In this document: positions 16,186-28,019 of the stretch, piece by piece
How positions within the stretch are numbered: position 1 is the stretch's first letter
How the letters are laid out: each line of letters begins with the position of its first letter
NCBI GenBank assembly: GCA_004297825.1
Contig: SCSX01000080.1
Coordinates: 1-59,139 of the forward strand
DNA from: Spirochaetota bacterium
Lineage (GTDB): Bacteria; Spirochaetota; UBA4802; UBA5368
Direction of reading: 5' to 3'
DNA: 59,139 nt
The notes under the pieces: model-generated
The model's input: the letters and a program-made list of their open reading frames with translations, nothing else
Database searches by the model: none
Told to the model about the DNA's origin: nothing
Position numbers and translations under genes: made by a program

Positions 16186-16377
16186 ATGCTTGGCGGAATA
16201 TTCAGATTCGTAATATTATTCATAGTCATCTATATAATTTATTCGCTTATAGTCAACGCGATCGGTATTTACAGGAAAATACGGCGCGAACAGGCCGAGA
16301 TGCGCTCCCGCACGGAGAAGGCCAAAAAGCGCGATAAGGTGATCGAACTTGATAAAGACCAGTATAAAGTCGAGTAG
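16186..16377 (+). CDS. Small membrane protein with charged cytoplasmic tail
   Basis: A product of about 63 residues consists of one strongly hydrophobic helix (FRFVILFIVIYIIYSLIVNA) and a Lys/Arg/Glu-rich tail. No family is recognised. The ATG at 16186 is favoured by GGTGGAG six bases upstream; a GTG at 16168, directly after the cdaR stop, is an alternative and would add six residues. It overlaps the next lipoprotein gene by 29 bp. Its placement behind cdaA-cdaR suggests it may belong to the same membrane complex, but that is only context. Confidence 0.6.
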   Translation: MLGGIFRFVILFIVIYIIYSLIVNAIGIYRKIRREQAEMRSRTEKAKKRDKVIELDKDQYKVE

Positions 16378-16786
16378 CCCGGGCAGGTACGCCATCGCGA
16401 TTCTGTTCGCGGGGGCCCTCGCGGTGCTTTCATGCGGCAAGCCGGGAGGGGATTTCGCGTTCAAGAAACCAATGGAGGACGTGTACCGCAAGGTCGCCCA
16501 GCCGCCCGAGTTCGAACGCGAGGAGGCCGTGGACTGGGTATTCGCGCTGAAAGGGCTCGGGGGCTCGCCCGTGAAACTGGCCGTATTTCTCGTAAAGAAG
16601 GAGCTCGTATGGGTTGAGCTGCATACCCGGACCGAATCGGTTACCAGGGACAGGGCATTTATCTACGGCACGATCGAGGGACTGAAAAAAGGACGCTACA
16701 AGATCATCATCGCGCGCGGGGGGGACGTCGTGGGAGAGCAGGAATTCGACATCTACGACGAGACCGACGACGGGGTCTTCGATTGA
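16349..16786 (+). CDS. Putative lipoprotein of unknown function
   Basis: The 145-residue protein has a type II signal (YAIAILFAGALAVLSCGKPGG, lipobox Cys about residue 29). The mature domain is beta-rich with an alternating pattern (VKLAVFLVKKELVWVELHTRTES) and ends very acidic (YDETDDGVFD). The TTG at 16349 is the only sensible start before the signal sequence and lies inside the preceding gene. It is the last plus-strand cistron, converging on the IspH-UbiA gene with a 13-bp gap. Confidence 0.65.
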   Translation: MIKTSIKSSSPGRYAIAILFAGALAVLSCGKPGGDFAFKKPMEDVYRKVAQPPEFEREEAVDWVFALKGLGGSPVKLAVFLVKKELVWVELHTRTESVTRDRAFIYGTIEGLKKGRYKIIIARGGDVVGEQEFDIYDETDDGVFD

Positions 16787-16799
16787 CCTTCGCGGCCGG

Positions 16800-18524
16800 T
16801 CAGTAAATCCCCAGCGCGAGACAGAGCGCGACAAACACCACGAAGTTGAAATCCACGATGAATTCGTATTTCAGCGCGAAAAAATAGCTCTTCGAGGGGA
16901 ATCGCACGAAGAGTATCCCCAGGTAAACCAGGTTAACGAGGAAGTACAGGTATATCGGCGCCCCGCGCGCCAGCACGAGCGCGGCGTACAGGAGAGACGT
17001 CGCGACCACGATTATGGCACCCAGGCGCTGGGTCTGCCGCGGGCCTATCGTTACGGGAAGCGTCTGCCTGCCCAGTATGAGGTCGCCCTGCGACGCAATG
17101 ATGTCGAGGAGCAGGTAGCGCAGGAGTATCATCGAAAACACGAAGGCGTTGAGCGCGATCATCGCCGGGGCCTGCGCGCCGCGCCCCAGGAGCGGCAGGA
17201 GCGCGACGGCGATGGTCCATCCGACCGACGAGATGATGTTCTTCTCCGAATAGACGAGCCTCGCCAATCGCACCGGCACGAGCTGTACCGCTTTTTTTAT
17301 GAGTCCGGTCGAATACACGCACCCGAGAAGCGCGGAAACCCCGTATACCGCCCCGATCCACCACGGGTGGGAGGATAGTACGAGCCCGGAGACGGCCAGC
17401 GAGAGCGCGGCCATCGGGAGGAGGAGGTATCTCGATCTTTTCAGGAGCGCGTATTTAACCGGGTTGCGCACCAGGAGCCATTGCATCTCGAGGAAATTGT
17501 TCACCGTGTACATCGAAAAAATGTAGAGCATCGATACCAGGCAAAGCCCCCTGTCCGGTACGAGTCCCGCATAGGATTGCACGAAGGCGGTTATGAAATA
17601 CGCGGTGACGGCGGAAAAAATGTTCGTGCGCAGCATGAATTGAAGGAGGCGAATAGGGATGTTCACCAGGAAAAAGCTGTTACGGAAATTGATATCGTAC
17701 AGCCGTTCCATGACGTTGTTGATGATCCAGCCCGGGGTCGAGGCGCCGGCGGTGACCAGCACCTTGCGGACGTTCCTGAAATCAGCGTGAAGAAGCTCCT
17801 CCTCGGTCTCGATGTGAAAGGTCTTCACGCCGTACTCGCGTCCCATCTGCGCGAGACGCTGGGTGTTCGCCGATTTTCGCCCGCCCACGACGACGAGAGC
17901 GTCCGCGCCGCCCTTGACGCCCTCGGTGACGTCGGATTGGCGGTTGTGCGTCGATTCACAAATCGTGTTGAACACGGTAAGCCCGGGGAAGCGCGCCTGT
18001 ATCCCCGTAACGATCTCGTCGAAACGGTCGGCGTCCTGGGTCGTCTGCGAAACCACCAGGTGGTTGGCGGCGGGGGGAATTAAAGGAATCTCCTGAACGT
18101 CCGATATCACGGAAACCCCCGCCTGCGCGTAGCTCTTGAGGCCGAGCACCTCCGCGTGGTCATGGTCGCCCACGATGATCGTATAGTACCCCATGCCGGA
18201 GTATTTGCGGATAATGCCCTGGACGCGCGACACCTTGGGGCAGGTCAGGTTGTAGTACCGCGCCGCGCGTCCCTTGATTTCCCGGAGCTTGTCGGCGGTT
18301 ATGCCATGGGTGCGGATCGCGATGGTTTTCCCGGCGATTCCGTCCAGGTCGTGAACGGTGCGGAGTCCCCTGGTTTCCAGGATCTGGGTCGTTTGCGGGT
18401 TGTGGATGAGCGGGCCATACACGAGAATTTCGTCGTCCGAGTGATTAAGCTCCCGCACGATTCGGAGTATCGCGTCGCGTACCCCCATGCAGAAGCCGGA
18501 GTGGCAGGCAAGCTCAATCTTCAA
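16800..18524 (-). CDS. ispH: Fusion of IspH (HMBPP reductase) with a UbiA-like prenyltransferase domain
   Basis: Residues 1-~285 are a complete IspH: the [4Fe-4S] ligands are Cys12 (GFCMGV), Cys95 (LTCPKV) and Cys189 (NTICESTHNRQ). Catalytic-site residues His123 and Glu125 (DHDHAEV) and the late KSANTQRL are also present. IspH makes IPP and DMAPP in the last MEP step. Residues ~290-574 form about eight membrane helices resembling UbiA prenyltransferases, with DIIASQGDLILGRQTLPVTIG near Asp474/Asp481 matching the second UbiA motif. The first motif, normally NDxxDxxxD, reads NNFLEMQWL (342-350). A TTG start at 18524 is inferred because upstream in-frame sequence is coding for GspN in another frame; the genes overlap by 11 bp. 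Confidence 0.85.
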   Translation of the reverse strand: MKIELACHSGFCMGVRDAILRIVRELNHSDDEILVYGPLIHNPQTTQILETRGLRTVHDLDGIAGKTIAIRTHGITADKLREIKGRAARYYNLTCPKVSRVQGIIRKYSGMGYYTIIVGDHDHAEVLGLKSYAQAGVSVISDVQEIPLIPPAANHLVVSQTTQDADRFDEIVTGIQARFPGLTVFNTICESTHNRQSDVTEGVKGGADALVVVGGRKSANTQRLAQMGREYGVKTFHIETEEELLHADFRNVRKVLVTAGASTPGWIINNVMERLYDINFRNSFFLVNIPIRLLQFMLRTNIFSAVTAYFITAFVQSYAGLVPDRGLCLVSMLYIFSMYTVNNFLEMQWLLVRNPVKYALLKRSRYLLLPMAALSLAVSGLVLSSHPWWIGAVYGVSALLGCVYSTGLIKKAVQLVPVRLARLVYSEKNIISSVGWTIAVALLPLLGRGAQAPAMIALNAFVFSMILLRYLLLDIIASQGDLILGRQTLPVTIGPRQTQRLGAIIVVATSLLYAALVLARGAPIYLYFLVNLVYLGILFVRFPSKSYFFALKYEFIVDFNFVVFVALCLALGIY

Positions 18525-19437
18525 CAGGCTGATCCTTTTCCGTTTCCGGGACCGGGGCCTTACCCTTTTCCCTTGGCCTGTCTTTCTCCTTTTCCTTGCC
18601 CCCCTTCGTCCAGGGGAACGTCGCCTTGGGATTTTTAAGGGGTCCGGTGAGCGTGATCTTGAGATTTTCCCCGTTTTTCTTCGCACCGCCCAGGAGGATG
18701 GCGTAATCCTCGAGGACGCGCGAGTCGGGGTCCAGTTCTATGGTGAGGTTCAGGTTCGAGCTCGCGATGCCCTTGGCGAGCGAGAGCATGCCGTGAATAT
18801 TGCCCTGGAGATCGGGCCCGGCAATTTTCATGCTCGCAAGGCGCAGGTTGCCGCGCTGAATGGTCGAATCGCCCCGGATGGATGAAAATTTTATCGGCGG
18901 AACGTCGAAGTCCTTGATCTTAATCCCCTTCAGAAACGCGTTGTTGAGTTCGAGCTTGAGAAAACCGTCCGCGGGAGGTCCCGATTCCGGAAACGCGAGA
19001 TCGAAGTCGCTCTTGAGGGCGGCGGTTACGGTGGTATCGGTGAGCGTATAGCGGAAATCCTGGATGGAAATCATTCCCCGCAGGGTCTTTTTCACGAGCG
19101 TGGTATACGGGTTGATGGCGATGTTGAACTTGATATCCTTCAGCACAAGCTCGCCGTCCTGAAGGCTTATGACGATGGAATCTATCTCGGAATTGCCGAA
19201 CAGGCTGAAATCGATCTCCCCCACGGCGATCGAGCGCCCCATGGACTTTTCGAGGTTGTGAAACTGTTCGCGAATAAGCAGCTCGTACGGGAATGTCATT
19301 ACGAAAAAGACGAGCGTCAGGACCACCGCCGCGGCGAGATAGAGTTTCACGTAGGGGAGCTTCCACATCTCCCGGAGCCTGCCGCCCAGCGACTGGAAAA
19401 AAGCGCGAATACCCGCCCGTATCGAATTTACATCCAT
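18514..19437 (-). CDS. gspN: Type II secretion GspN-like (Leptospira/Geobacter type) protein
   Basis: The 307-residue protein has one membrane helix (about 33-50). A periplasmic, repetitive beta-rich region with AsmA/GspN character follows (for example GNLRLASMKIAGPDLQGNIHGMLSL). The Pro/Lys/Glu-rich tail is probably disordered. Its place as the gene after gspM and its size fit the GspN form found in Leptospira and Geobacter type II systems, where it may contact the secretin or the membrane; the exact role is not established. Confidence 0.75.
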   Translation of the reverse strand: MDVNSIRAGIRAFFQSLGGRLREMWKLPYVKLYLAAAVVLTLVFFVMTFPYELLIREQFHNLEKSMGRSIAVGEIDFSLFGNSEIDSIVISLQDGELVLKDIKFNIAINPYTTLVKKTLRGMISIQDFRYTLTDTTVTAALKSDFDLAFPESGPPADGFLKLELNNAFLKGIKIKDFDVPPIKFSSIRGDSTIQRGNLRLASMKIAGPDLQGNIHGMLSLAKGIASSNLNLTIELDPDSRVLEDYAILLGGAKKNGENLKITLTGPLKNPKATFPWTKGGKEKEKDRPREKGKAPVPETEKDQPVED

Positions 19438-19447
19438 GGCTCTCCCG

Positions 19448-19963
19448 TCATTGCTGAGTGAAACTGTCGATTTTTATGATTACATCGTACGTATCGGCGC
19501 CCTTCATTCCCTGGTAAATCTTCAGGTAGCTGACTTTTAGAAGGCTGTTGGAATTCTCAATCTCGTAAAGGAACCGGAAAAATTTCTGGACGGGCACCGC
19601 GTCCAGCTTGATATCCGAAGTGAACTTCGTGTACTTGTTCTGGATGTTCGCCTGCGTGCGGCGGTTATACGCGATGTTCTTCGAGACATCGGCGGTGTTC
19701 GCCCATTGCTCGATCAATGTGCTGATGTTTTCGTTCCGGTTTCCCAGCTGGGTCTGGTAGCGCGTTTTGCGCTGCTTGATATCGCGGTACTGGTCGTAGA
19801 GCGCCTCCAGCCGGGTGATGTCGCTCACGTTCTTGCGCGTCTCCTGCTGCGTGGACGAGCGGTATTCCACGAGCGGCATTATGATCAGGTAATAGGCGAG
19901 CGTGAACGCCAGCATCCCGCCCAGGGCGTAAAGAAGGTATTTTTCCCTTGACGAGAGCTTCAT
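19448..19963 (-). CDS. gspM: Type II secretion inner-membrane protein GspM
   Basis: The 171-residue protein has a single N-terminal membrane helix (about 10-30), a coiled-coil stretch (about 35-85) and a C-terminal ferredoxin-like alpha/beta part, the standard GspM/PilO layout. GspM partners GspL in the inner-membrane assembly platform. Its ATG overlaps the gspL stop by four bases. Confidence 0.8.
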   Translation of the reverse strand: MKLSSREKYLLYALGGMLAFTLAYYLIIMPLVEYRSSTQQETRKNVSDITRLEALYDQYRDIKQRKTRYQTQLGNRNENISTLIEQWANTADVSKNIAYNRRTQANIQNKYTKFTSDIKLDAVPVQKFFRFLYEIENSNSLLKVSYLKIYQGMKGADTYDVIIKIDSFTQQ

Positions 19964-21600
19964 TTTGCTTCACCCCGTTCCGCGGGTTTCGCCTTTCCGC
20001 CCCGGATTTTCTGCTTGATGATCATGGTGAATGTGGTCTGATTCGCGCGCGCCTGGTTGGTGGTAAAATTCACCGAATCGTATTTTTTCGTGTCGACCAG
20101 GCGGTTGCGGTAGTCATCCAGGGTTTTCACCGTTCCCACGGTCCCGTCGATACGGACGGAATTGTCGTTTACCACGACGCTGGTAAGAACGAATCCATCG
20201 TCCCCCGGGAATGCGGTGACCACCCCTTTCATGAGATCGATAAGCCTCTCGTCGGACTGGATGATGTTGTCGATCGCCTCCACGTCCTTCTTCTCGTCGT
20301 TGACGAGCTTCTGCGCGGCTTTCACCGGGTCGGCCTCGGCGGGTTTGGTGTGAAAGTATTTCTGAAACCGGTCGTTCAGGAGCGCCGAATATTCCGAGCT
20401 CGTTCTATAATTGATGACCGCCGCGGTCACGAGGTTCACGGCAAGTACGATCGCGGCGGCGACCCCTACCGCTCCCGCGAAATAATAGATCTTGCGCGAA
20501 TTGGAAACGAAGTCGGGGAGGAATTCACCCTTCAGGAAGTTGATGGACGCCTGCCTGCGATCGAGGTAGGAGAGCACGGTTCCGAACACTATGGGGAACT
20601 GCGATTGGATTTTACGCTCGGTATAGTCCGGAAGGAAGGGGAGACCGGCTACCGGTACGTTGAAACTCCTGGACAGCAGCATGCCCAATCCCGCGATGTT
20701 GGAGCCCCCGCCCGATATGAGCATGCGGCCGAACTCGATGCTGCCGTATTCCACCGCGAAGGATTTGAGCGTGATCGCCACCTGCTCTATGAGCTGGTCC
20801 ACGACCGCGCACGACGTTTCATAGATGCGTTTCAGCCTGGGACGGGTGATGCCCAGGGTCTTGTAGTATTCGCGCTGGAGGTTGTTTTCCAGGGACGTGA
20901 GATCCAGGTTGAGCTCCTCGAAAAGCCGGCCGGCCTCCGCGAGCGTCATCTTGTGAGCCGTGGCGATCTCCCGGTAGATGTCCGATGTGCCCAGGGTTAT
21001 GCAGCGGGTGTAGATGAGGAAATTGTCCCGTATGACGTTGACGACGGTTTTCGAATGCCCGATATCGAGCTGGATGACGGATTCGCCCCCGACCCGGTTG
21101 AAATATCGGTAACACTCGAAGAGGGCGTTCGCCTCGAGTCCCATGCGCACGGGCTGTATGCCGCATTCCTGGAGCGCGGCGAGCAGGTCGCGCAGCTGGT
21201 CCTTGTGGGAGGCCGCCAGGAGGATGCGGCCCTCTTCAGGGTTCGATCCCCTGAGCGACTGGAAGTCCATTGAAAGCTCGTCCATCCGGAAGGGGATGTT
21301 TTCCTCGGCCTCGAAGGGAATCGCCGATCGTATCTTTTCGAGATCGCTGAAGGGAAAGGTTATGTTCCTGATAATCGCCTTCTCCATGGGAAGGTTGACG
21401 AATACCGTGTATCCCTTGAGGGGATTCTCCTCCAGCATTTTACCGAGCGTCGCGGCAATGGGCGACGCATCCTCCGTGTCCCCGGGGCCTATGTCCTCGT
21501 AGGTCATGGAGGTAATCTGGAAATTCCTGAGGCTCGTCCGGATGGTGATCATCTTTATGGAGGATGACCCTATATCCAGCGCCGCGATGTTCTCAAACAA
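19960..21600 (-). CDS. gspL: GspL/PilM-like actin-fold protein of the type II secretion platform
   Basis: The 546-residue protein starts with a PilM-like actin fold (ALDIGSSSIKMITI, VIQLDIGHSKTVVNVI, MLISGGGSNIAGLG). It continues through one membrane helix (about 375-400) into a periplasmic GspL/PilN-like domain. It thus combines the cytoplasmic PilM and periplasmic PilN functions on one chain, as GspL does. It couples the GspE ATPase to the pseudopilus machinery. It is followed directly by gspM and preceded by gspK in the same operon. Confidence 0.85.
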   Translation of the reverse strand: MFENIAALDIGSSSIKMITIRTSLRNFQITSMTYEDIGPGDTEDASPIAATLGKMLEENPLKGYTVFVNLPMEKAIIRNITFPFSDLEKIRSAIPFEAEENIPFRMDELSMDFQSLRGSNPEEGRILLAASHKDQLRDLLAALQECGIQPVRMGLEANALFECYRYFNRVGGESVIQLDIGHSKTVVNVIRDNFLIYTRCITLGTSDIYREIATAHKMTLAEAGRLFEELNLDLTSLENNLQREYYKTLGITRPRLKRIYETSCAVVDQLIEQVAITLKSFAVEYGSIEFGRMLISGGGSNIAGLGMLLSRSFNVPVAGLPFLPDYTERKIQSQFPIVFGTVLSYLDRRQASINFLKGEFLPDFVSNSRKIYYFAGAVGVAAAIVLAVNLVTAAVINYRTSSEYSALLNDRFQKYFHTKPAEADPVKAAQKLVNDEKKDVEAIDNIIQSDERLIDLMKGVVTAFPGDDGFVLTSVVVNDNSVRIDGTVGTVKTLDDYRNRLVDTKKYDSVNFTTNQARANQTTFTMIIKQKIRGGKAKPAERGEAK

Positions 21601-21624
21601 GGCAGGTCCTCCGTCCAGGCGGCG

Positions 21625-22872
21625 TCATTGCTCGCCCACATAATAATACTTCTTGGTGTCACGGTTGTATACGGCCACGATGGTGACCTCGGTGTCGTTC
21701 ACGGTCCCCGTCGAATCGATCCTGAAAATGAAGGAGCGCACGGAGAGGTGATTTTTTCGAAAGGTGTCATCCGGAACGAGGTCCTTTATTTCGTCAACGG
21801 TCTCGAAGGGCTTCTGCTGCCGCCTCCGGACGAGCTCGGTCACGATATCATCGGTCATGGTATCTGTCAACGCCGATAAGACGCGGTATGACGCGGTGTT
21901 GATATTTATTTTATTCAGGTCGCTCAGGTAGTCGGTCCGGTCGCCGTGAACGCGAAAGTAATCGGAAAGCCTGCGGCTCCGCTCCTTTCCTATGGGGCGC
22001 TCGAGCCCCTTGAAGCTCATGGTCTTTTCCGCGAGACCCTTGTTTCCCGGGGCGAATTTTTCCACGGCGGCCGCGTCCAGGTTCTGGTTACCGCGATTGT
22101 CGTCAACGAGGTTCGTCTCGTTGACGGGCGGGTCGCCCAGGCCGTAATAGATCTCCGGCGTAATCCCCCTGACAAGCAGCATCTCCTGGATGCTGTCCAT
22201 TTCGCGGTTCTTCGCGTGGTAGGGGGAGGGCAGGGTCAGGTAATAATCCGAAGACTCCGCGCCGTAGGGAGACCGCGAATCATCCAGGTCCACCCAGTCG
22301 AGCAGGCAGTCGGCGAGGTCCATGGGAAGGCCCATGTTCAGGAAGAAGCGCTGGGTAATTGAATAGTAGGGCGTGCGATCCACCACCTCGGTGCCCAGCA
22401 CGCTCAGGTTGATCTTCGAATTTTCGTCGTTGATGCGCAGCTTCAGGTCCCCGTATTCAAGGGGAATCTCCGGGAAGTTGAGGGCCCAGAGATCCTGGTA
22501 TGAATCGACCGCGGAATTCGAGGACGCCCCCTGCATGATGCTCGAGGAGCCCCCCTTCTTGTCGGCGTCCAGTATGTAGGCGCACAGGGCCGTCCCCGCC
22601 TTCGCGAGCGTCCAGGCCTTGAGCTTCTGGTCGAACCCGCGCTTGTAGTGCATGTTGGTGACCGCGGTGATGAAGAACTCCGACGACACCGATACGAGCA
22701 GCGTGATCATGAGAAAGACGATCACGAGCACGAACCCCCGGGAGCCGCGCATCCGAACGAATACGCCGTGCGCGCGAAGGTCCGCGGCCCTCCGGGCATA
22801 GTCGTGCCGGAAGGCTGACGCATAACGCGCCATGAGGCCGCGGATCTTCATGGAGTATTTCATCATGGTCAT
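21625..22872 (-). CDS. gspK: Minor pseudopilin GspK
   Basis: The 415-residue protein has a prepilin-type helix beginning SRGFVLVIVFLMITLLVSVSS. The large globular domain has the GspK signatures (LKAWTLAKAGTALC, INDENSKINLSVL, LLDWVDLDDSRSPYGAE, ININTASYRVLSAL). GspK caps the pseudopilus tip with GspI and GspJ. The leader before the cleavage site is unusually long (about 45 residues) if the first ATG is used; the internal ATG at 22752 would give a short, conventional leader. The +5 glutamate of ordinary pseudopilins is absent, as is normal for GspK. Confidence 0.9.
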   Translation of the reverse strand: MTMMKYSMKIRGLMARYASAFRHDYARRAADLRAHGVFVRMRGSRGFVLVIVFLMITLLVSVSSEFFITAVTNMHYKRGFDQKLKAWTLAKAGTALCAYILDADKKGGSSSIMQGASSNSAVDSYQDLWALNFPEIPLEYGDLKLRINDENSKINLSVLGTEVVDRTPYYSITQRFFLNMGLPMDLADCLLDWVDLDDSRSPYGAESSDYYLTLPSPYHAKNREMDSIQEMLLVRGITPEIYYGLGDPPVNETNLVDDNRGNQNLDAAAVEKFAPGNKGLAEKTMSFKGLERPIGKERSRRLSDYFRVHGDRTDYLSDLNKININTASYRVLSALTDTMTDDIVTELVRRRQQKPFETVDEIKDLVPDDTFRKNHLSVRSFIFRIDSTGTVNDTEVTIVAVYNRDTKKYYYVGEQ

Positions 22873-22883
22873 CGTGTTCTCGC

Positions 22884-23603
22884 TCAGTTCATGGGGGTCA
22901 GGTAACTCACCAGGGTGAACGATTCCTCGGCCTGCTTCCCGGGCTCGTCGGCGGACATGCGGTAGCTTTTCATCTTGAGGGTCGTACGCACGGCGACCGG
23001 GAACTTCTTGTCGTTCTTCGAGTCCCAGTGCGAGCTCCAGTCGTTCCGCAGCCAGAATTCGAACTTGATATCGGCGACGTGTTTTAGCAGGATGCTCGAC
23101 GCGCCCCCGGTCTGCGGGGCGTCGTCGTAGGTGAGCTTTTCACGCCGCATTAAAAGGTAGCTTCCCTCGAACCCGGGATCGGGCGTTTTATCCTCCATGA
23201 GATAGTATCCCACTTCCTTGACGTCGCTTCGGGGAAAGGATTCACGGGGGTCCGATGATACCGTCGACGCGACGCGATTCACGGCGACGAATGAGATCTT
23301 CCCGTTGGAAAAGGTGCCGGAAGAATTTTCGCCCGATATCTGTACGTTCGGGTTCAGCTTGTTGGAGAACGCGTAGGTCAGGTCCTTGTCAACGCGGTAG
23401 AGCGCGAGGTTCAGGCTTTCGTAGAATCCCGCCACCCCGGCCGAGTGGCGGATAGACGCGATCACCGAGCGGTGCGCCGTATAGGCCATGATGAGGATGA
23501 GGGAGGATACCGACATCGCGACCACCATCTCGATGAGCGAGAACCCCTGGTCTTCCGCGAGGAGCGAGTGTAATCGTGTGAAAAGGCGCCGCATCTCCGT
23601 CAT
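22884..23603 (-). CDS. gspJ: Minor pseudopilin GspJ
   Basis: The 239-residue protein has a prepilin signature (QGFSLIEMVVAMSVSSLILIMAY, with the conserved Glu at +5) and a large beta-rich domain ending SFTLVSYLTPMN. The start at 23603 is chosen because its ATG overlaps the gspI stop (ATGA). With GspI and GspK it forms the tip complex of the type II pseudopilus. Confidence 0.88.
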   Translation of the reverse strand: MTEMRRLFTRLHSLLAEDQGFSLIEMVVAMSVSSLILIMAYTAHRSVIASIRHSAGVAGFYESLNLALYRVDKDLTYAFSNKLNPNVQISGENSSGTFSNGKISFVAVNRVASTVSSDPRESFPRSDVKEVGYYLMEDKTPDPGFEGSYLLMRREKLTYDDAPQTGGASSILLKHVADIKFEFWLRNDWSSHWDSKNDKKFPVAVRTTLKMKSYRMSADEPGKQAEESFTLVSYLTPMN

Positions 23604-24004
23604 TTCTCCGGGTAAATGTAACTGATGGAATAGTTTCTCTGCGTGCCGCGCTCCTCCCATTTCACGGTAATTTCGAGCTTCTTGGCCGCGAGCGGCCCGA
23701 AAAATTCATGCTCGAAACGGGTGACCGTGCGGCTGTAGGTGAAACCCTCGTACTCCTTCACTATATCGTTCTGTATATCGGGGGCGCGCATGCGCATGAT
23801 CTGGAATTCGGCGAGCTTGTTTTTCGCGATGAGCATCGCCTTGGTGATATTGCGATTCTGCGCGATCGCGAGAATTCCCTTCGATACCCCCGAGATGATT
23901 CCCAGCAGCACGATCGAGAGTATCGTGATGGCGATGAGAAGCTCGATTATCGCGAAGCCCTCGTGCGGGCCGCGGCGCGTTTCCCGTCTATTCGTAGCGC
24001 GCAT
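23600..24004 (-). CDS. gspI: Minor pseudopilin GspI
   Basis: The 134-residue protein has a basic leader (MRATNRRETRRGPHEG) and the prepilin helix FAIIELLIAITILSIVLLGI with the conserved Glu at +5. The soluble domain (LIAKNKLAEFQI and a C-terminal ISYIYPEK) matches GspI size and layout. It overlaps gspH by 17 bp and gspJ by 4 bp. Confidence 0.88.
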   Translation of the reverse strand: MRATNRRETRRGPHEGFAIIELLIAITILSIVLLGIISGVSKGILAIAQNRNITKAMLIAKNKLAEFQIMRMRAPDIQNDIVKEYEGFTYSRTVTRFEHEFFGPLAAKKLEITVKWEERGTQRNYSISYIYPEK

Positions 24005-24560
24005 AGCCCTGCTCGATTGACGGCTCTTTTAGAAACTTTGATATCCGCACGGACCGCTGATCCGTGCCGTTCACCAGTACGTGGACGATCACGTCGTCGG
24101 AATAGCCCGCGGGGTGGAAGGGAACGAGCACGTTCCCGCGCCTCACGACCTGGCCCCCGGCGAAGAGGACCTCCTCGATGCGAAAGGCGTCGGAGAACTC
24201 ATGGAAGCGGAGCAGGCGCTGGGGAGAGTCCGTGAATTTTCCCTCGGGGGAAAGATTCAGGACCGAGATGGCGTTCTTCCGTTCGAACACGCCCTCGTTG
24301 AATTTTGAAAGTTCCATATCGCGCTCGTAGAGGTGGAATACGACGTAGTTGGTCCGTCCCTTTACGAACGCGTCGTCGAACGCCTTGGAGATGAGCGCGC
24401 GCACCACGATGAGCCCGCTCCGCTCGGCGTTCATGAAATTGGCGATGCGGGGGGCGACGACCATCGCCATGACCGAGAGTATCGAAATGACGATGATGAG
24501 CTCTACCAGCGTGAATCCCTCACGGCCGGAGAGCGCGCGGATGAACGGTCGGCGGCTCAC
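23988..24560 (-). CDS. gspH: Minor pseudopilin GspH
   Basis: The 190-residue protein has a prepilin signature (REGFTLVELIIVISILSVMAMVVAP) and a beta-rich GspH/FimT-like C-terminal domain. It follows gspG by 15 bp. GspH sits between the GspG shaft and the GspI-J-K tip. Confidence 0.88.
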   Translation of the reverse strand: MSRRPFIRALSGREGFTLVELIIVISILSVMAMVVAPRIANFMNAERSGLIVVRALISKAFDDAFVKGRTNYVVFHLYERDMELSKFNEGVFERKNAISVLNLSPEGKFTDSPQRLLRFHEFSDAFRIEEVLFAGGQVVRRGNVLVPFHPAGYSDDVIVHVLVNGTDQRSVRISKFLKEPSIEQGYARYE

Positions 24561-24575
24561 GTCGGGACGGCCGGG

Positions 24576-25058
24576 CTATTCCCAGCTCCTGATATCGGCG
24601 TTTTCGCCCTCGCCGCCGTCCTTCCCGTCGGCGCCCAGGCTCACGAGCTCGTAATCCTTGCTCTGCTCGCCGGGCGAGCGGTACAGGAACGCGCGTCCCC
24701 ACGGGTCCTTGGGCACCTCCCGCTTTTTCAGGTAGCCGCCCTCGTTGTAATTCTGCGGTGAGGGCTCGCTGGACGGCTTGTTTATCAGCGCCTCGAGACC
24801 CTGCTCGGTCGTGGGATAGTTTCCATTGTCGCTGCTGTACATCTCGAGGGCCATGCCTATATCGGCGATCTGCTGTTTCGCCGCGGCCACTCGCGCCTTC
24901 TTGGGAAGGTCCATGAATCGCGGGACCACCATCACCGCGAGGATGCCGAGAATGGTTATCACGATCATGATCTCCAGGAGCGAAAAGCCGCCCCGTCCCG
25001 CGAGATCGCGCCCGAGCCTCGAGATCCGGTTCATACACGCGCGCATCAGCTGTTTCAT
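24576..25058 (-). CDS. gspG: Major pseudopilin GspG
   Basis: The 160-residue protein has a prepilin cleavage motif [28 protein letters not shown]. The GspG-specific calcium-binding loop region follows ([49 protein letters not shown]). It polymerises into the periplasmic pseudopilus that pushes substrates through the secretin. No gspO prepilin peptidase lies in this window, so processing must rely on one encoded elsewhere. Confidence 0.94.
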
Positions 25059-25069
25059 GCTTATTCTCC

Positions 25070-26317
25070 TTATTGTAGAATCAGGTTCATTTCGAATATG
25101 GGGAGGAGTACCGATACCACCAGCAGGCCGATAAAAAGCCCCATCACCACTATGATGATGGGCTCGATAAGCCGGGTGAGGCTCGATATGGTAAGGTCCA
25201 GCTCCGTTTCGTAGACATTGCCGATCTTCACGAGCATAGTATCGAGCGTGTCGCTCGCCTCGCCCGCGGCGATCATGCCCATCACGAGCCGGGGAAGGAA
25301 CCCGCTCTTCGCGAGGGCCGTCGATACGGTCGCCCCCTCGCGGATCTTTTTCGCCGCCTCGTCGATGCGCTCCTCGACGACGGAATTGACGACGATCTTT
25401 TTCACGATCTCGAACGATTTTAAGATGTCGACGCGGTTGTTCAATAATATTCCCAGGTTCTGCGTGAAACGGAGCACCAGGAGCTTTTTATAGAGCTGGC
25501 TCACCAGGGGCAGCGTGAGCTTGAGCTCGTCCATCTTCCGCCTTCCCTCGGGGGTCTTCCGATACTGGTTAAAGAAGTATCCCCCGGTGATGAGCAGGGT
25601 GAGCGGGATGAACCAGTAGTTCGCCAGGAAGTCGCTCACCGCCATGACGATCCGCGTGGGCAGGGGCAGGCTCTTGCCCAGGTCCAGGAAAAGGCGCGAG
25701 AGCGAGGGGATCACGTATATCATTATCAGGAAGATGACCACGAACGAGACGATCACCAGGAACGCGGGATACCATAGGGCCGCGTTGATCTTGCTTTTCA
25801 GGACGGTCCTCTTTTCTTCCAGGTCGGCGAGGCGCTCCATGACCTGGTCGAGCGAGCCCAGGCTCTCTCCGACGCGCACCATGCTTATAAACATGTCCGA
25901 GAATAAAACCTTGTGTCGCTCCAGGCAGTTCGAGAACGAGGAGCCTTCCTCGAGCTTGCCCTTGATGTCGACGATAATGCTCTTGAATACCTGGTTGTCA
26001 ATCTGGTCGATGATATCGGTGATCGCGACCAGCAGCGGCATGCCGGCGTTCAGGAGCGTCGCGAGCTGGCGGGAGAAGATGCCCACCTCCTTCACGCTCA
26101 TGCGAAGGCTCACGTAATGAGAAAGCCGGTCGTAATAGGCGCGTAAGGCGCTCCCGCCTTCGGAGGGACCCGTTCCCATGACCGCGTGCGGCTTGATGCT
26201 CGTCACGTAGAGCCCCTGCGCGCGGAGCCTCTGTCGCGCGGCGACGTCGCTCGTCGCGTCTATGAGATCGGAAACAGCCGTCCCCTTGCGGTCCAGGGCC
26301 TGGTATTCATAGATCAT
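25070..26317 (-). CDS. gspF: Type II secretion inner-membrane platform protein GspF
   Basis: The 415-residue protein has the duplicated GspF domain ([16 protein letters not shown] and the second copy [17 protein letters not shown]), membrane helices near 180-205, 230-250 and 385-410, and the terminal [16 protein letters not shown]. The N-terminal [19 protein letters not shown] is also typical. It is the core of the assembly platform driven by GspE, which lies immediately upstream with a 1-bp gap. Confidence 0.94.
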
Positions 26318-26318
26318 G

Positions 26319-28019
26319 TCAGCTCACCCGCCGGACTTCTTCGATGGTGGTGATTCCCTGGAAGGCTTTTTCGAGCCCGTCGGTGAGGAGCGTGGGCATG
26401 CCCTCGGTTATGGCCTGCTGCTTGATCTCCTGGGCCTCGGAGCGCGAGAGAATCATGCGCCGGATATCCGCCGAAAGCGGCAGGAACTCGTAGATTCCAG
26501 TCCTTCCCAGGTATCCCGTGTTGAGACATTTCTCGCAGCCTTTCCCGCGATAGAGCTTGTTGCCCTTGATATGCGTCCGGTCCGCGCCGAGCTCTTTCAG
26601 CATCGCGGCCGTGGGCTTGTAGCTCTCCCGGCAGTGCGGGCATATCGTGCGCACCAGGCGCTGGGCCAGAAACGCGTTCACCGATGAGGTGATGAGGAAG
26701 GGCTCCACGCCCATGTCGATGAGGCGCGTGATGCCGCTCGCGGCGTCGTTGGTATGCAGCGTTGAAAACACCCGGTGTCCCGTGAGCGCCGACTGCACCG
26801 CGATTTCGGCGGTTTCCAGGTCGCGGATTTCCCCGATCATGATCACGTCGGGGTCCTGCCGCAGTATGGAGCGAAGACCGTTCGCGAAGGTGAGATCGAT
26901 CTTGGGCTTCACCTGCATCTGGCCTATGCCCGGGATCTGGTACTCGATGGGGTCCTCGACCGTGAGGATGTTGATGTCCGCGCTCTTGAGCGACGAAAGC
27001 ACCGCATAGAGCGTCGTGCTCTTTCCGCTTCCCGTGGGACCGGTCACCAGCACCACGCCGAATGTCTTGCGGATGATCTGATTGAACCCCGCGAGCGTCG
27101 ATGCGGAAAATCCGAGCGACGACAGGTCGAAGCTCATATCGGTCTTGTTCAGGAGACGGAGCACCACGCGCTCGCCGTAGTAGGTGGGGAATATCGAAAC
27201 GCGGATGTCGATGTCTTTCCCCCCGATCTTGATCTGGATGCGCCCGTCTTGCGGAAGGCGGTTCTCGGCGATGTTCAGGTTCGCCATGATCTTGATACGG
27301 GATATTATCGCCCCCTGGTATTTCTTGGGCGGCGTGAACATCTGGTACAGTATACCGTCGATACGGTACCGCACGACAAGTTCCTTCTCGTAGGGCTCAA
27401 GGTGAATGTCGCTCGCGCGGTCCTGCACCGCCTGTGAGACGACCATGTTGACGAGCTTGATGATGGGGGCCTCATTCGCGAGGTCCATTATGTCCTCGGT
27501 CTCCATGATGGGCGAGGTGAGGATCTCGAACTCGGACTCTTCGAGGGTCTCGATGACCTCCCCGGTCGTATCGCCCTTCATCATCTCGAAATGGGCGGCG
27601 ATGACGCGCTGTATCTCGAGCTCGCCGGAGAGCGCGAATTCCAACGTATATCCCGGAAAAATCATCTTGAGATCGTCGAAGGGATGGAAATTGAGCGGGT
27701 CAGAGATCGCGACATGTATTAATGTGCCCGATACGCGGTAAGGCGCCACGCGATTCTTCCTGAGAAAGTACACGGGGACTTGCGAGAAAACGCCGTCCTT
27801 GTCCTCGAAGTGAAGCGATTTCACGTAGGGCATGCCAAACTGCGCGGCCAGTGCGTCAAGTACGTCGTCCTCGGCAGCGAGCCCCTTTTTCACGACGATG
27901 GCGCCCAGGCGCAGGGTCGTGCCTTTCTGCGCAAGCAAAAGCTCCTGGAGCTGTTCGACCGTGAGCACGCCGCGCTCGACGAGAATGGCCCCCAGCATCT
28001 TGTTCTTCTTGGAAGGCAT
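26319..28019 (-). CDS. gspE: Type II secretion ATPase GspE
   Basis: The 566-residue protein has an N-terminal MshEN-type domain (LGAILVERGVLTVEQLQELL), then the secretion ATPase. The Walker A loop is GPTGSGKST with Lys333, with the Asp box EDPIEYQIPGIGQ, Walker B-region MIGEIRDLETAEIAVQSALTGH and the His box STLHTNDA. The tetracysteine zinc motif (CPHC and CEKC) is present. It powers pseudopilus assembly from the cytoplasmic face. It starts 7 bp after the gspD stop. Confidence 0.95.
   Translation of the reverse strand: MPSKKNKMLGAILVERGVLTVEQLQELLLAQKGTTLRLGAIVVKKGLAAEDDVLDALAAQFGMPYVKSLHFEDKDGVFSQVPVYFLRKNRVAPYRVSGTLIHVAISDPLNFHPFDDLKMIFPGYTLEFALSGELEIQRVIAAHFEMMKGDTTGEVIETLEESEFEILTSPIMETEDIMDLANEAPIIKLVNMVVSQAVQDRASDIHLEPYEKELVVRYRIDGILYQMFTPPKKYQGAIISRIKIMANLNIAENRLPQDGRIQIKIGGKDIDIRVSIFPTYYGERVVLRLLNKTDMSFDLSSLGFSASTLAGFNQIIRKTFGVVLVTGPTGSGKSTTLYAVLSSLKSADINILTVEDPIEYQIPGIGQMQVKPKIDLTFANGLRSILRQDPDVIMIGEIRDLETAEIAVQSALTGHRVFSTLHTNDAASGITRLIDMGVEPFLITSSVNAFLAQRLVRTICPHCRESYKPTAAMLKELGADRTHIKGNKLYRGKGCEKCLNTGYLGRTGIYEFLPLSADIRRMILSRSEAQEIKQQAITEGMPTLLTDGLEKAFQGITTIEEVRRVS

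Follow-up and report, generated by a model that had tools for sequence, protein, structure and literature searches.

A conserved IspH–UbiA-like fusion protein of Spirochaetota with a predicted, consistently altered UbiA metal site

Proteins in which IspH, the HMBPP reductase that completes isoprenoid-precursor synthesis, is joined to UbiA were described as 'Rosetta stone' proteins by Rao et al. in 2015, who collected about 47 sequences, all from sulfate-reducing anaerobic bacteria, reported two DXXXD motifs in them and proposed that the fusion serves membrane localisation together with local supply of IPP and DMAPP; the full active protein could not be expressed (PMC4746011). The Spirochaetota protein described here likewise consists of an N-terminal IspH and a C-terminal UbiA-like membrane domain in one chain, but, as compared with the published description, it lacks both DXXXD motifs. 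Another known arrangement, the IspH–RPS1 fusion (PRK00087), also joins IspH to a C-terminal partner, although there the partner consists of ribosomal protein S1 repeats and not of a membrane domain. Both the fusion type and the idea of local supply have thus been published (PMC4746011), and what is added here is the distribution in Spirochaetota and the state of the active site.

The window, i.e. the whole stretch of DNA analysed, comprises 59,139 nucleotides of contig SCSX01000080.1 from a draft Spirochaetota assembly of 96 contigs (GCA_004297825.1). The fusion is encoded in a single open frame (Table 1) with a TTG start at 18524, a position at which the nearest relative also has TTG and most other relatives have ATG. 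It is the sole IspH of the source genome, which additionally carries two further UbiA-family genes, both of them ordinary.

Table 1. Features of the fusion locus, in window coordinates
Feature	Position	Strand	Details
IspH–UbiA-like fusion gene	16803..18524	-	574 aa; stop codon 16800-16802
IspH (LytB) domain, residues 1-275	17700..18524	-	PF02401, TIGR00216, Foldseek to IspH structures
UbiA-fold multi-helix membrane domain (predicted), residues 276-574	16803..17699	-	AlphaFold model, Foldseek
First Asp-motif position, NNFLEMQWL, residues 342-350	17475..17501	-	alignments
Second Asp-motif position, R469..D474..A477..D481	17082..17120	-	alignments; Ala in place of the first DxxxD Asp
gspN-like gene	18514..19437	-	3' end overlaps fusion start by 11 nt
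gspM, L, K, J, I, H, G, F, E-like genes	19448..28019	-	upstream, same direction

By sequence, the N-terminal half is certain to be IspH, scoring 257.8 bits against PF02401 (LYTB; cut-off 24.5) and 242.1 bits against TIGR00216 (cut-off 187.85). The initial annotation had described its active site as intact, and all of the residues in question were indeed found: the Fe-S cysteines C12, C95 and C189 as well as the active-site residues H41, H73, H123 and E125, each of which is invariant in 44 fused proteins. With every catalytic residue that was checked in place, this half is predicted to be a working IspH.

The assignment of the C-terminal half is less direct, but a UbiA fold is well supported by modelling. 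The Pfam UbiA profile gave a weak score of 21.8 bits on the C-terminal 299 residues, below the cut-off of 34.2, while the relative L014 exceeded the cut-off by itself with 36.3 bits. When the domain by itself was compared as a profile with solved structures, the matches, to chlorophyll synthase, were similarly weak (E 0.03), and sequence identity to known UbiAs is approximately 15%. In profile–profile comparisons with the ordinary UbiAs of related genomes, however, the probability was 90–96% and both motif regions aligned. The AlphaFold model of the domain, built from 30 homologues, had a mean pLDDT of 88.7, and the top PDB matches of this predicted model in Foldseek all belonged to the UbiA superfamily (7bpu, 6m31, AfUbiA 4tq3/4tq5/4tq6 and ApUbiA), with E-values of 1.8e-4 to DGGGP synthase and 4.1e-4 to AfUbiA. 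The domain shares with AfUbiA, DGGGP synthase, MenA and UBIAD1 the predicted fold, equivalents of N68, Y139 and D202, and a TLP-type sequence after motif 2, and differs from the prenyltransferases of the superfamily in lacking equivalents of D76 and D198.

These equivalences were taken from alignments and from published ligand data for AfUbiA (PMC4106721). In motif 1, N342 corresponds to N68, E346 to D72 and L350 to D76, and elsewhere Y404 corresponds to Y139, A477 to D198 and D481 to D202. AfUbiA K146 corresponds approximately to K410 or K411; a Lys or Arg is found at 410 in 27 of 30 members of the window's order, which matches K146 only with a one-residue shift. The position of R22 has no exact match, an Arg being located two residues further on.

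The window protein matches neither the NDxxDxxxD first motif nor the DxxxD second motif. The first had been called degraded from its sequence, NNFLEMQWL, which is as odd as described, but its NN opening is no defect in itself, because an ordinary UbiA-family protein of the same genome has NNVQDRALD. The claim that the second Asp motif is kept did not hold: the region reads R469-YLLL-D474-II-A477-SQG-D481, so that half of the motif is lost through A477 in place of the first Asp, and D481, along with D474, remains. The possibility that the domain has a complete Asp site at another place was considered and rejected, since the C-terminal domain of the window protein contains no DxxxD. Among the order members, none has a DxxxD in this domain except L034, whose second motif is DYQGD, and L011, which has DIVLD out of the motif register.

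The same pattern recurs throughout the order. Across the 30 members, D481, R469, N343 and K357 are invariant, N342 and Y404 are present in 29 each and D474 in 28, and K428 and E554 are also invariant or nearly so. Position 346 is Glu or Asp in 22 of the 30, whereas position 350 is Leu, Ile or Met in all of them and never acidic, and position 477 is Ala, Gly or Ser in 29 and Asp in one. As judged from these alignments, the motif loss involves both Asp motifs and is conserved across many Spirochaetota, and it is therefore a trait of the family and not the mark of a broken gene. In families f15, f17 and f42 the prenyl-diphosphate pocket would be weaker, because the D72 position (346) is Asn in 11 of 11 sequences and there is no conservation at the K410 position.

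The initial annotation had read the gene as an IspH–UbiA-like fusion and proposed looking for the same arrangement elsewhere. A phylum-wide profile search, in which only full-length matches were counted, recovered it from 60 of the 392 Spirochaetota genomes covered, and the fusion is a real, single gene. These genomes comprise 27 from the window's order, spread over most of its families, 28 from f15 (roughly 2–3.4 Mb and often near-complete), two from f42 and one each from f17, f32 and f29, of which the f32 and f29 genomes are incomplete, so that these two finds may reflect contamination. A divergent fusion (L095) was also present on an IMG/VR contig of cellular appearance, and a plasmid scan gave no full-length match to the fusion. 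No IspH match was obtained in five order members (G011, G022, G024, G040 and G041), probably owing to gaps in draft genomes. Another order member, G029, has a second ispH that is fused to ispE (L039:2714-4345), with the GHMP kinase domains preceding LYTB, and which lies within a further set of MEP-pathway genes.

In a quick tree with several long branches, the fused UbiA-like domains formed one clade against the ordinary UbiAs (SH-aLRT 99), and by this analysis the predicted membrane domain belongs to an old, fusion-specific clade of its own, separate from the known prenyltransferases. In the IspH tree, the fused proteins fell in several places: the stand-alone IspHs of f3 (G009 and G018; loci L040 and L041) were sister to the fused clade of the order, and the stand-alone IspH of G088 (L104) nested inside f15. 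A single fused clade with f3 and G088 inside was not rejected (p-AU 0.149, under a constraint that left out the three most divergent fusions), and the sequences would allow one fusion event followed by losses of the domain. For G088 the stand-alone IspH would represent a natural loss of the membrane domain; for f3, a gain of the domain after the split of that family is possible instead of a loss. No stand-alone copies of the domain were detected at E<=1 in the fusion-less relatives f3, G088, G054 and G282.

In most of the order, the fusion or a stand-alone ispH comes immediately after gspN as the last gene of a type II secretion operon (window 18514-28019; L044-L066, L040 and L041), and gsp genes (E/F through N), named from translations and gene order alone, precede the fusion in nearly every order locus long enough to tell. 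The initial annotation had stated that the fusion is co-transcribed with these genes; the 11-nt overlap with gspN and the order-wide synteny agree with this, while co-transcription itself is inferred from them. Since the stand-alone ispH of f3 sits at the same place after the gsp genes, the association with the secretion operon does not depend on the membrane domain. A small ORF on the forward strand (16349-16786), convergent with the fusion and without a Pfam match, adjoins the fusion in several of the order's families. Outside the order, the fusion has other neighbours. One divergent IspH–UbiA protein, L102 (G195:C75), has an intact second motif, DVQGD, and its gene follows one for a trans-polyprenyl diphosphate synthase (PF00348, 218.8 bits) at a distance of 46 bp, a position which fits a prenyl-related role there, and its contig is possibly a contaminant.

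The reading that we favour, and to which we give an even chance, is that the UbiA-like domain serves as a tether with a retained pocket of the prenyl-phosphate type, in which ordinary transferase chemistry is altered or absent. The domain would hold IspH at the inner membrane and would keep a pocket for a prenyl phosphate, a prenyl diphosphate or some other lipid; lacking the normal two-metal site, it would carry out no ordinary UbiA prenyl transfer, and it would act as a membrane tether and a ligand-binding or altered-chemistry module near the sites of IPP/DMAPP use. We infer both the tethering and the ligand binding from the predicted fold and the conserved residues, which putatively face the cavity of the domain. 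In AfUbiA, alanine at N68, D72, R22 or K146 abolished GPP binding, whereas D198A weakened it 45-fold and D202A 21-fold, neither of them abolishing it (PMC4106721). As some binding is left in D198A, a pocket can survive loss at that position, and a retained but altered pocket is favoured because the mutation at D198 only weakens binding while those at N68 and D72 abolish it. The inexact matches at the R22 and K146 positions, and the substitutions in f15, f17 and f42, weigh against this reading.

Alternatively, the domain could be catalytically active as a prenyltransferase, with its metal site rearranged and IspH feeding it locally with IPP/DMAPP, as envisaged by Rao et al., which we consider possible but rather unlikely. 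E346 can replace Asp, N342 and D481 are kept, and the complete DVQGD of L102 beside its synthase gene also favours such an activity. The absence of a C-terminal DxxxD from the order members other than L034 and L011, however, is unfavourable to it, as are the secretion genes that take the place of prenyl genes next to the fusion in the window's order. Moreover, EcMenA depends critically on its second-motif ligands for function (PMC4106721), and the lost ligands of the fusion speak against ordinary transferase chemistry. Somewhat more doubtful is that a UbiA-fold clade whose metal site is reduced has taken on a new role, which might be that of a prenyl-phosphate sensor or carrier controlling IspH, or a non-standard transfer fed directly by IPP/DMAPP.

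That the domain is a membrane anchor alone, with no ligand, which the initial annotation had offered as an option beside channelling to a transferase, appears improbable. The partial loss of the ordinary ligand residues, the retention of ispH without the domain in f3 and G088, and the faster evolution of the UbiA part (mean identity 35%, as against 60% for IspH) would be in line with a mere anchor. On the other hand, N343, K357, Y404, K428, R469, D481 and E554 are invariant or nearly so within the order, which is more than an anchor needs, and so is the dN/dS, which was low in the UbiA part (0.04–0.20, compared to 0.04–0.11 for IspH, in nine pairs; rough estimates, some with high dS). Together, these conserved polar residues and the purifying selection make a mere anchor less likely and argue against decay of the domain. 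Finally, the idea that two genes were joined artificially, by misassembly or a frameshift, for which the draft state of the source assembly could be cited, is ruled out with near certainty by the conservation of the same single frame in the 60 genomes, which span several families and include the one-contig genome G140.

The results extend a published fusion of unexplained function to another phylum. Its membrane half is a clade under selection that has consistently and partially lost the UbiA metal site, and the role of the UbiA part can now be tested through defined residues and through the natural comparisons that f3 and G088, which are without the domain, provide.
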